Shown here: positions 1,968-4,875 of the stretch, piece after piece
Position numbering within the stretch: the first letter of the stretch is position 1
Layout: the number at the start of each line of letters is the position of its first letter
NCBI GenBank assembly: GCA_947629945.1
Contig: CANRFR010000009.1
Location: forward strand, 1 to 44,964
Source: an uncultured Clostridia bacterium
Lineage (GTDB): Bacteria > Bacillota > Clostridia > Oscillospirales > Ruminococcaceae
Length of the DNA: 44,964 nucleotides
Direction of reading: 5' to 3'
Made by a program: the position numbers and the translations under genes
The notes under the pieces: model-generated
Database searches by the model: none
The model's input: only the letters and a program-made list of their open reading frames with translations
What the model was told of the DNA's origin: nothing

Positions 1968-2108
1968 CAGTTGACAGTGTATAGTGTACAGTTTATAGTT
2001 TCGGTACGGCTCCGCCGCTTATTAAGATTGTCTGCGCGCAAAAGCGTTGGCATCAACGTTTTGTTTTGCAGCAACAACTGTACACTTTCAACTGTACTCT
2101 ATCAACTG
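1968..2108. repeat. Inverted-repeat element, copy 1, between atpG and atpD
   Basis: This 141-bp element has imperfect terminal inverted repeats built from units such as CAGTTGACAGTGTA at the left end and CAGTTGATAGAGTA at the right (reverse complement). Near the centre is GCGTTGGCATCAACGTT. It aligns over much of its length with the element at 4737-4875, and the right half aligns best. The atpG stop codon (2102-2104) lies inside the right terminal repeat. No transposase is encoded, so it resembles a MITE-like non-autonomous element. Confidence 0.8.
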
Positions 2109-2956
2109 TTTTGCGCCGAGGCTCCCGATACGATATCGATGATCTCGGTGGTAATGCTTGCCTGACGCGCTCTGTTATACAGCAGCGACAGGCTCTCCGT
2201 CATAGCGTCCGCGTTGTCGGTCGCGGCTTCCATAGCGGTGCGGCGCGCGCCCTGCTCGGAAGCGTAGCTCTCAACTATGGCGCACATCAAAAGACTCGCC
2301 GTGAAGCGCGGCACGATACGGTTGAACACCGCCTCGGGAGACGGGTCGTAAGTCATATTGCCGTCGAACTCCAGCTTCTGCGTATCAAGCGGCAGCAGCT
2401 TCATGGTTTCGGGCTGCTGCGAAAGCGTCGAGTTGAACATCGTGTAAAACACGTGTACCTCGTCGACCTCGCCCTCCGCGAACATTTTTATCGCCAAGTC
2501 CGCGATGTCCTGCGCCGTGTTGGGCTTGATGTCCTCCGCGATATTCGCGAAGCTTGCCACTACGTCATAATCGCGCTTCTGGAAGTACTCCGCGGATTTT
2601 CTGCCGACAGCGATTATCTTCGGCTTTTCGGCGTCGCTTTCGTGAGCTGCCGCCGCCATTTTCAGCACGTTTGAGTTATAACCGCCCGCAAGTCCTCTGT
2701 CGCCCGCAACCACGATAAACAGCTTATGCTTTACTTCGCGCTTTACTGTGTAGACTGTGGAGAAATCCTTGTTTGCCGAGGCTATCTCACACATTGTTTT
2801 GTAAAGCTCGTTGAAGTAGGGGCGCGTTTGCTCCGCACGCGTTTTCGCCTTTCGGAGTTTGCTTGAAGCCACAAGCTGCATAGCGTTGGTAATCTGCTTT
2901 GTGGAGCCTACCGATTTAATGCGCCGCTTAATGGCTTTCATATTTCCGCTTGCCAA
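2102..2956 (-). CDS. atpG: F1F0 ATP synthase gamma subunit
   Basis: This is the rotating central stalk subunit. The N-terminal helix MKAIKRRIKSVGSTKQITNA and the C-terminal helix with the SLLYNRARQASITTEI stretch are characteristic. The start is best placed at a TTG (2956), giving MASGNMKAIKRRI. The site AAGGGGTG ends six bases before it, and gamma subunits commonly begin MA. A GTG three codons upstream overlaps that ribosome site, and the ATG at 2941 has only a weak one. The last residues and the TGA stop come from the adjacent repeat element. Confidence 0.95.
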   Translation of the reverse strand: MASGNMKAIKRRIKSVGSTKQITNAMQLVASSKLRKAKTRAEQTRPYFNELYKTMCEIASANKDFSTVYTVKREVKHKLFIVVAGDRGLAGGYNSNVLKMAAAAHESDAEKPKIIAVGRKSAEYFQKRDYDVVASFANIAEDIKPNTAQDIADLAIKMFAEGEVDEVHVFYTMFNSTLSQQPETMKLLPLDTQKLEFDGNMTYDPSPEAVFNRIVPRFTASLLMCAIVESYASEQGARRTAMEAATDNADAMTESLSLLYNRARQASITTEIIDIVSGASAQNS

Positions 2957-3051
2957 ATATTTCACCCCTTATTTGATTAAATTTCAAGATCCTGTTCAGC
3001 TATGCTTCGCCGACTGTCCAAGACCGTTCTCCGACCGTTTAAAGCAATACC

Positions 3052-3177
3052 TTAAACGTTGTCGTCGGTGGTGATATATTTTACCTTTTTCTCAATATAG
3101 AGCCACGCCACCGCGATAGCCGAAACCGTCGCGAGTACCGTTGCCACTATGCTGAGAACAAATGATGCCTGTTTCAT
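3052..3177 (-). CDS. 41-residue single-span membrane peptide within the atp operon
   Basis: An ATG at 3177 is preceded by GAAAGGAGAT, one of the strongest ribosome sites in the window. It opens a 41-codon frame ending in TAA. The peptide begins MKQASFVLSIVATVLATVSA and continues as a hydrophobic helix to about residue 28, followed by a charged tail IEKKVKYITTDDNV. It lies 27 bases after atpA and about 95 bases before atpG, in the same direction. I recognise no family. By position it could be an accessory or assembly peptide of the ATP synthase, but that is inference. The ribosome site and single-helix composition argue for a real gene. Confidence 0.7.
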   Translation of the reverse strand: MKQASFVLSIVATVLATVSAIAVAWLYIEKKVKYITTDDNV

Positions 3178-3204
3178 ATTATCTCCTTTCGGAATACGGA
3201 AAAA

Positions 3205-4713
3205 TCAGCCCGCATAAGACGCCGCGAAGCTTGTCAAAAGCTCTTTGAGAGCCTCCTCGTTAGCTTCGGTCATTACCTTTTCGGTGCGTATGCTCTCAAG
3301 TATCTCGGGCTTGTTCGCCTTGATGTGGTCGATAAGATCCTTTTGATACTGCTTGATCTTAGGCACGGGAATAGGCGCTAAGTAGTTGTTTACGACCGCG
3401 TAAACGATAACGACCTGCTCCTCGACCGCAAGCGGGGAGTTTTGGTCTTGTTTAAGCACCTCAACTATACGCTCACCCTTTGCAAGACGCTCTTTCGTAT
3501 CTTTATCCAAATCCGAGCCGAACTGCGCGAACGAAGCCAGTTCACGATACTGCGAGTAGTCGAGTTTAAGTTTTCCGGCTACCTTTTTCATAGCCTTGAT
3601 CTGCGCGTCGCCGCCGACACGAGATACCGAAATACCGGGGTTTACGGCGGGACGAACGCCCGAGTTAAACAATTCGGTCTCAAGGAATATCTGACCGTCG
3701 GTAATCGAGATAACGTTGGTTGGGATATACGCCGAAACGTCGCCCGCCTGAGTCTCGATTATAGGCAGAGCGGTAAGCGAACCGTTGCCGTACTCCTTAT
3801 TCATACGCGCCGCGCGTTCAAGGAGTCTTGAATGCAGATAGAATACGTCGCCGGGATAAGCCTCACGTCCCGGCGGGCGCTTCAGCAACAGCGACAGCGC
3901 TCTGTAAGCCACCGCGTGCTTCGACAAATCATCGTAAACGATAAGTACGTCTTTGCCTTGCTCCATAAAGTACTCGCCCATAGCGCAGCCCGCGTAAGGC
4001 GCGATATATTGCAGAGGAGCCAGCTCGGAAGCGGTCGAGGATACAACGATCGTGTAGTCCATCGCGCCGCCTTTTGTGAGTGTTTCCACAACGTTCGCAA
4101 CAGTGGAGTTCTTCTGACCTATCGCAACGTAAATGCAAAGGCAGTCCTTGCCCTTTTGGTTGATTATGGTATCGACAGCTATAGCGGTCTTACCCGTCTG
4201 TCTGTCGCCTATGATAAGCTCACGCTGACCTCTGCCTATCGGTATCATAGAATCTATAGCCTTGATACCCGTTTGCAGCGGCACGCTTACAGGCTCACGC
4301 GTGATGATACCCGAAGCGATCTTCTCAATCGGACGGGTCTCTTTAGCGAGAATGTCGCCCTTGCCGTCTATCGGCTGACCAAGAGAGTTCACAACGCGTC
4401 CCAAAAGCTCGTCGCCAACGGGAACGGACACGATGCTGTTCGTGCGCTTTACGCTGTCGCCCTCTTTAATGCCCTTGTCCGAGCCAAGCATAACCGCGCC
4501 GACGAAGTCCTGCTCGAGGTTCATCGCCATACACCGAACGCCGTTCTCGAATTCCAGCAGCTCGTTAAGCATACACTTTTCGAGACCTTGGATACGCACG
4601 ATACCGTCGCCTATCGTAACAACAGTGCCCACGTCGCCGAGCTGTATTTTCGAGTTGTAGTTCTTTATGCGGTTCTTTATAAGACCCGTTATTTCATCGG
4701 GGCGTAAATCCAT
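3205..4713 (-). CDS. atpA: F1F0 ATP synthase alpha subunit
   Basis: This is the regulatory, nucleotide-binding alpha subunit of F1 (502 residues). The P-loop GDRQTGKT is at residues 169-176, and the C-terminal part carries the conserved [14 protein letters not shown] segment. The start [12 protein letters not shown] lies nine bases after AAAGGG. An in-frame ATG three codons earlier touches that site, and a longer upstream frame runs through repeat DNA, so both were rejected. It is separated from atpH by the second inverted-repeat element. Confidence 0.98.
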
Positions 4714-4736
4714 TACATACATCCCTTTCTTGAATA

Positions 4737-4875
4737 ATTGATAGTTTACAGTGTACAGTTGACAGTTATTATTGCGTCCGCGGCGCAATATTTGATTGTA
4801 CGCGAACGGTGGCGTTGTGCCAACGTTCCGAACAGTGTCAACAACTGTCAACTTTCAACTTTACACTGTCAACTG
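4737..4875. repeat. Inverted-repeat element, copy 2, between atpH and atpA
   Basis: This is about 139 bp long. The left end (ATTGATAGTTTACAGTGTAC) and the reverse-complemented right end (CAGTTGACAGTGTAAAGTTG) are imperfect inverted copies. The centre has GCGTTGTGCCAACGTT, matching the centre of copy 1, and the right arm aligns with copy 1 through AACAACTGT, CTTTCAACT and TCAACTG. The atpH stop codon lies inside it. Size, layout and relation to the neighbouring stop codon are as in copy 1. Confidence 0.8.

Follow-up and report, generated by a model that had tools for sequence, protein, structure and literature searches.

Two inverted-repeat elements in the atp operon of an uncultured Ruminococcaceae bacterium belong to a dispersed family of heptad arrays placed at upstream stop codons

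The window analyzed here is a 44,964-nucleotide stretch of DNA from an uncultured Clostridia bacterium of the family Ruminococcaceae (positions 1 to 44,964 of contig CANRFR010000009.1, assembly GCA_947629945.1). It contains an ATP synthase (atp) operon, read on the minus strand, into which two inverted-repeat elements are set. Element 1 (1968..2108; no strand assigned) occupies the junction between atpG upstream (2102..2965, minus strand; gamma subunit, PF00231) and atpD downstream (554..1954, minus strand; PF00006). Element 2 (4735..4875, likewise without strand) separates atpH upstream (4869..5423, minus strand; delta subunit, PF00213) from atpA downstream (3205..4713, minus strand, with the start placed by eye and 3205-4707 scanned; PF00006). 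The genes were identified with Pfam; the assignment of the two PF00006 genes, atpA and atpD, to alpha and beta is our presumption from gene order. An initial annotation, made from the letters of the sequence alone, had described the elements as inverted repeats of about 140 bp that each hold the stop codon of the preceding gene. Arms, folds and coordinates all bear this description out: the elements are 141 nt and about 138-141 nt long, and the TGA codons of atpG (2104-2102, minus strand) and atpH (4871-4869, minus strand) each lie within the first heptad of the respective right arm.

The inverted arms pair 1974-1993 with 2076-2095 in element 1 (20 nt, 85% complementary) and 4738-4770 with 4840-4872 in element 2 (33 nt, 79% complementary). 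The AACTGTAC/TCAACTG-like terminal units of the initial annotation are present, and their nature is that of period-7 arrays: heptads (CAGTTGA, CAGTGTA and variants) run inwards from both ends in arms of 28-35 nt. With respect to the atp transcript, the right arms (2074..2108 and 4841..4875, minus strand) are the upstream arms; the left arms (1968..2002, with heptads CAGTTGA, CAGTGTA, TAGTGTA, CAGTTTA and TAGTTTC, and 4735..4762, both plus strand) are the downstream ones. The interiors form GC-rich hairpins. A central GCGTTG..CAACGTT palindrome, also described initially, occurs in both elements but is not constant in the family, whose interiors vary. On both strands the two elements fold much better than their dinucleotide shuffles, with z scores of -4.74, -5.14, -5.01 and -5.65 (0/200 shuffles in each case). 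The scan of the window with Rfam 15 at gathering score gave no match to either element.

Further copies, for which the initial annotation had proposed a search of the host genome, lie in many places and constitute a dispersed family. At least 44 elements, of which 23 are inverted pairs and 21 are single arms, were counted in 28 stretches of the bacterium's own genome (G000) together with the window; this is a lower bound, pattern matches being present on contigs C54 and C115 outside these stretches. A sister species (G039) has 44 elements in the stretches read, and a termite-gut metagenome-assembled genome (MAG; Th196P3bin43, here G081) has 137 pattern matches at no more than 2 mismatches. As a query against the own genome, element 1 retrieves 13 matches (E up to 0.001) and element 2 retrieves 73 local pieces (E up to 10, so that part of them are due to chance). 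A pattern of about four heptads matches 61 times in G000 (overlapping matches counted), 51 times in G039 and 0-10 times in each of 41 other congeners, so that it is present in 20 of the 43 genomes of the genus; its backward control matches 0-1 times. Among 38 genomes of other genera, one has 2 matches and 37 have none. (An earlier, looser array pattern was uninformative on chance, with 123 matches for its backward control against 106 for the pattern, because the heptad read backwards is nearly the same repeat.) Among the matches listed, exact arrays in named genomes come chiefly from Oscillospiraceae and other Clostridia MAGs, and rarely from Cyanobacteria, Bacteroidota and one Tissierellia MAG. 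Family members occur at many unrelated gene ends, those of ATP synthase and ribosomal protein genes included. Nine of them (one in both orientations) align with a mean column identity of 50%, and their majority consensus consists of the arms, a central AGATTGTCTGCG..CGC.GACAATCT hairpin and GC hairpins at the flanks. The elements look like relatives of repetitive extragenic palindromic (REP) repeats and of miniature inverted-repeat transposable elements (MITEs), not like a special feature of the atp operon.

The arms comprise about four to five heptads (CARTTGA/CARTGTA and variants). On the strand facing the upstream gene, and from either side, they present a TGA in each of the three frames over a span of some four heptads, and hence end any gene that runs into them. 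What this means for the two atp elements is that a stop inside the arm is a built-in property, since a (CAGTTGA)n array has TGA in every frame.

The elements lie in the interval from one gene's stop codon to the ribosome-binding site of the gene that follows, and 77 of the 85 that have a called gene on both sides (G000 and G039 together) lie between co-directional genes. (Genes were called with a home-made codon-bias caller that places starts imprecisely, and some distances to the next gene come out negative.) In sense orientation, 31 of 39 pairs and 24 of 29 single 5' arms begin no more than 5 nt beyond the upstream stop; none of 9 single 3' arms does so. Negative offsets peak at -7 (13 cases) and -3 (5 cases), meaning that the stop lies inside the arm's opening heptad or is provided by the TAA of TAATTGA. 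A general rule that hairpins start at stop codons was considered and rejected, since stems of heptad-free genes rarely do so: they fall at -3..+2 of the stop in 1/60 (G000), 5/180 (G039) and 6/72 (G081) cases, and at 9-40 nt past it in 31/60, 107/180 and 36/72, respectively. The elements thus sit more tightly at upstream stops than do the ordinary stems of G000 and G039, which supports this part of the initial annotation.

Any (CAGTTGA)n insertion in a gene generates a nearby stop, so that distance to the stop proves little by itself; C-termini were compared for this reason. Eighteen sites were set against orthologues in four congeners (G039, G040, G024 and G011), one site having no orthologue. 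The protein ends at the identical residue at 11 of the remaining 17 sites, is shifted by -5 to +2 residues at 5, and is unalignable at 1. Unchanged C-termini include those of ribosomal proteins L2, S11, S5, L6, S12 and S7; the shifted ones are those of a TrpB-like PALP-family enzyme (+1), topoisomerase I (-5 to 0) and three others, the shift depending on the orthologue. Four more sites compared with G039 are shifted by 0, +1, +1 and 0. In the window, AtpH ends in GSVISS* (GSVIA* or SVI* in relatives, GSVIN* in G039) and AtpG in ASAQNS* (ASAQ followed by E, S, G, SN or NN, and ASSQS, in relatives). To judge from these predicted C-termini, the element is at the native stop or a few residues from it, and supplies the stop in a minority of cases.

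The termite-gut MAG displays the use of successive frames directly. With respect to the array, the upstream open reading frame ends at offsets +3/+4 (27 cases), -7 (21) and -21 (9), which are the three frames of successive TGAs; 64 of 78 stop-side arrays fall in -21..+4 (array offsets were taken at 51 of 72 loci). Of 64 arrays with a TGACGRA flank, 56 have a sense gene upstream and 2 face a gene start, while no gene was called near the other 6. The outer heptad TGACG(A/G)A occurs irrespective of the frame of its TGA, which makes it part of the element.

Several observations bear on mobility. The pairs have the features by which a MITE is defined (terminal inverted repeats, a size in the range of about 80-250 bp, multiple copies and no gene); the single arms are without a second repeat. 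Two copies on contig C27 of G000 resemble one copy on contig C10 of G039 (81-84% over 155-163 nt), whereas the orthologues of the genes that precede the C27 copies are found on contig C1 of G039; whole copies of similar sequence thus occur at non-orthologous sites. In the MAG, 52 units with a fixed 37-nt start stand behind flanks that show no relation to each other: their mean identity is 28%, and none of 1326 pairs exceeds 60%. When G000 and G039 are compared, 16 of 44 G000 elements and 8 of 44 G039 elements can be placed in the stretches of the other genome, and the placed sites are mixed: orthologous arrays with few changes, decayed arrays, and absent or replaced elements. At atpH-atpA both genomes have an element, differing in length and heptad type; at atpG-atpD, G039 has just a small hairpin and heptad-like remnants. 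Elsewhere in G039 (L308, 7768-7917), three similar palindromes of TTTCTCCCCGCGCCGCGGGGAGAAA type fill a junction that is occupied by a heptad element in G000.

The reading that we favor, with moderate confidence, is that the elements are copies of a MITE- or REP-like non-coding dispersed palindromic repeat that is tolerated at stop codons. The repeat would spread by means of a trans-acting machinery, and its copies would persist at the ends of genes because translation that enters an arm, in whatever frame, is stopped there by some four heptads at most. Insertion at a stop would cost the upstream protein no residues or few, and would leave, or bring, a Shine-Dalgarno sequence for the next gene. 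The arms would remain inverted copies of each other mainly through processes at the DNA level (spreading together as one unit, slippage by 7 nt at a time, and correction templated by the palindrome) and not through selection for RNA base pairs. The mismatches between arms provide the evidence on this last point. A selected sense RNA stem would generate more G.U than A.C mismatches; the two are about equal (30:32, 15:12 and 18:27; in total 63:71 over 62 pairs, and 10:12 for the second heptad family of congener G010, described below), and give no sign of sense-RNA selection. Heptad type agrees between the arms of a pair (r 0.73, n 76). Together, mismatch pattern and heptad-type agreement fit upkeep at the level of DNA.

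A number of findings weigh against reading the elements as mobile repeats tolerated at stops. Arrays that are kept at orthologous sites of G000 and G039 also fit a selected function. No consistent target-site duplication was found at orthologous sites (compared by eye, in spacers too diverged for a firm reading), nor a consistent motif there, so that the preference for TTGA/TCAA target DNA entertained in the initial annotation is not borne out. Five carriers of the family (G000, G039 and G081-G083, all draft genomes) have no match to Y1_Tnp (PF01797), and PDDEXK_2 is missing from G000, G005, G010 and G040. Position is also less telling than it looks. A gap model, in which each element inserts uniformly in the gap left to it and 15 nt are reserved for the ribosome-binding site, places 27.2 of 39 pairs within 5 nt of the stop, with 31 seen (4 of 2000 simulations reach 31); a second version, biased by its requirement for an upstream gene within about 45 nt, expects 29.9 of 32 with 32 seen (127 of 5000 simulations). 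Tight operon spacing largely accounts for the closeness of pairs to stops, and a residue remains. Finally, in a small set of atp junctions from 20 congeners, ordinary stems do lie at -3..+2 in 3 of 9 cases and at -10..-4 in 3 more.

A RAYT (REP-associated tyrosine transposase)/Y1 enzyme was considered as the mobilizer and rejected on the absence of Y1_Tnp matches in these five draft genomes; the domain is present in 9 of 43 genomes of the genus. A PD-(D/E)XK 'transposase' was also rejected in this role: there is none in G000, one in G039 and none in the heptad-rich G005, G010 and G040, and by eye, with no statistic applied, the number of such genes bears no relation to the number of heptads. 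Ends common to an autonomous transposon were not seen in the stretches read. PD-(D/E)XK nuclease genes (PF12784) occur in repeated stretches of G081 (L168, 2581-3261; L203, 2193-2699).

The most serious competitor, which we nevertheless regard as unlikely, is an RNA-level regulatory hairpin at which an RNase III-type cut or a block to exonucleases sets subunit ratios in atp and ribosomal operons; the initial annotation had suggested RNA processing to this effect. The strong folds of elements 1 and 2, the location of most elements between co-directional genes, and the copies that follow ATP synthase and ribosomal protein genes all speak in its favor, but the near-equal G.U and A.C mismatches on the sense strand do not, and the interiors of the two C27 copies are in opposite orientation though both copies lie between plus-strand genes. 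The comparison of atp junctions in relatives, which the initial annotation had recommended, cuts both ways. In congeners other than G000 and G039, hairpins that fold below z -1.5 are found at 6 of 19 atpH-atpA and 10 of 27 atpG-atpD junctions, leaving 13 and 17 junctions unstructured beyond this threshold. These hairpins are unrelated to the heptad elements, a finding that goes partly against the initial annotation, and several are near-identical in closely similar species and do not count as independent. Such a distribution would leave room for a weak general advantage of a hairpin at atp junctions. (Intrinsic termination was considered separately and rejected: a run of five T within 12 nt after the pair occurs in just 1 of 39.) Taken together, the interpretation given in the initial annotation is partly supported.

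Insertion truly targeted to stop codons, by a machinery that recognizes stops in DNA or in translated RNA and inserts in one orientation, is a still less probable explanation. It would account for the native stop being found within a few residues at 16 of 17 orthologue sites (the last is unalignable), for the orientation of arrays in G081 (56 to 2), and for the single 5' arms, for which the gap model expects 7.2 within 5 nt and 24 of 29 are seen (0 of 2000 simulations). However, the same model predicts most of the closeness of pairs, and its expectation for single arms is too low because the gap there includes the decayed remainder of the element. Arrays of the second heptad family are also placed more loosely: in 400 kb of G010 chosen without regard to matches, 8 of 17 stop-side arrays fall in the range -9..5, and 24 of 45 arrays lie away from both ends of a gene. 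Portable promoters, with TTGACA heptads 16-18 from TATAAT-like hexamers driving internal transcription, are a very improbable account, since the scores that might suggest them (10 of 12 or more in 20/39 pairs sense and 20/39 antisense, against 1.6 for shuffles; 11 or more in 3 and 7 pairs, respectively, against 0.1) are largely a by-product of period 7 and alike on both strands.

At the downstream face of the repeat, GGGGG follows pairs in 11/21 cases in G000 (7/180 for other genes), 4/13 in G039 (17/417) and 4/8 in G081 (23/270), with the G-run mostly 5 nt after the 3' arm; CCCCC within 10 nt before the 5' arm is found in 0/39. At the topoisomerase I gene, where some relatives have overlapping genes, G000 has an element, a G-run and a start (judged by eye). 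This suggests that the element may bring a Shine-Dalgarno sequence for the next gene. Two sets of observations are contrary: G-runs without TTGACAA heptads stand at three congener sites (two in G024, one in G039; by eye), and the two atp elements have no G-run.

Among known repeats, GTAG/CGTC REP palindromes are short, dispersed and mostly located between co-directional or convergent genes, the GTAG termini often give a TAG stop codon to flanking reading frames, and the CGTC class is without a dedicated transposase (PMC3733652). Proximity to the 3' end of the upstream reading frame and the occurrence of single or paired units are shared with the heptad family (PMC3733652), which differs in that its arms are 28-35 nt heptad arrays with a stop in all three frames, and in the lack of a Y1 transposase match in the five carriers. 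No GTAG/CGTC tag beside a stem of at least 6 bp was found in 23 G000 pairs, 19 G039 pairs or either window element; in G081, 10 of 52 units have a GTAG-tagged hairpin after their heptads, so that an association with REPs exists there. REPs no more than 15 nt from a stop have been linked to control of translation (PMC12306157). The MITEs Correia/NEMIS, ERIC, YPAL and RUP are similar in size (about 100-200 bp), in having terminal inverted repeats and stable folds, in being mainly intergenic, and in having no transposase gene of their own; the 155-bp Correia element and RUP also have stops in all frames (PMC2229807, PMC10969869). The arms of the heptad family, in contrast, consist of tandem heptads whose number varies; a fixed target duplication was not seen, nor any parent insertion sequence in the stretches read.

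The TAACTGA heptamer arrays of Beggiatoaceae, Cyanobacteria and Bacteroidetes come close in other respects, being mostly intergenic and patchy across phyla, with stops in all frames, some overlap with gene ends and indels in 7-nt steps; in the best studied genome they are direct and mostly lie a short way ahead of start codons; one case there is inverted (PMC4679880). The present family has another heptad and is made up of inverted pairs or single arms at upstream stops. The cyanobacterial STRR heptanucleotide repeats are likewise period-7 tandem repeats. GTAG REPs are already known to have this position and to donate a stop codon (PMC3733652), and all-frame-stop heptad arrays are known from TAACTGA (PMC4679880). 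The heptad letters searched for gave no match in the open-licence PubMed Central (PMC) literature, and the searches made there did not turn up the combination of inverted heptad arms at stops in Clostridia without Y1 transposase.

What the favored reading offers is an account of how gut Clostridia can hold high-copy repeats within operons as essential as those for ATP synthase and ribosomal proteins: such repeats may be able to sit there because their arms bring stops in every frame. It joins two literatures, on REP/MITE palindromes and on period-7 arrays, and yields a testable rule (a stop per heptad, and a period not divisible by 3). Should the repeat prove to seek stop codons or to bring a ribosome-binding site, its insertion specificity would be unusual.

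A second heptad family, (G/A/T)T(T/A)AGA(A/G) with TAG or TAA in most units, extends the comparison. Its arrays stand at the L2, S11 and S7 gene ends of G039, G040 or G024 (found by eye; S11 and S7 also by period scan), so that different heptad families are located at matching ribosomal gene ends in different species. Of the 43 genomes of the genus, 24 contain its pattern. The highest number of matches is 572, in G010; G039 has 4 and G000 has 0, and the backward control matches 0-1 times. At 30 hit loci with 43 arrays, 13 are on the stop side (11 of these within -5..+3), 16 just before a start and 14 at neither. It is conceivable, though on balance doubtful, that two or more heptad families with no relation to each other have independently arrived at a common design, an operon insert that is neutral to translation. 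On the side of the upstream gene, most heptads would contain a stop (TGA in TTGACAA; TAG or TAA in GTTAGAG/GTAAGAG); since 7 cannot be divided by 3, these stops would fall in all three frames. The downstream face would often end about 5 nt before a G-rich Shine-Dalgarno sequence. An insert of this kind could enter almost any junction, even one of overlapping genes (topoisomerase I), and harm neither cistron.

The period scan was agnostic as to sequence and was run at gene ends with a score of 9, and again with a stricter score. Outside known arrays it found period 7 at 0 of 180 gene ends in G000 and 1 of 403 in G039. In 108 mixed loci (orthologues of element sites, atp loci and pattern matches) it found period 7 in 8 of 223 and other periods in 0-2; with the stricter score there was no period-7 array at stop sides.

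Other repeats were met along the way. In G010 (L407-L426; for example L409, 9004-9233), TTAGAGG/GTAAGAG heptads build inverted repeats that reach about 260 nt in length and are nested in some cases, and 3 of 11 pairs inspected have a common flank of AGGGGTTTTCCCC type. In G081 (L159-L235) arrays are often followed by terminator-like hairpins (ACACCGCCCGGC..GCCGGGCGGTGTTT), a further repeat family, and GTAGGGGACGGGC..GCCCGTCCC palindromes, another one, come after 14 of 52 units. The window itself has a third heptad array of the family at 28739..28773 (minus strand), a single arm followed by a GC hairpin, which begins 14 nt past the called upstream stop. The sole Rfam match in the window is a tetrahydrofolate (THF) riboswitch (RF01831, 88.8 bits) at 13829-13931 on the minus strand.

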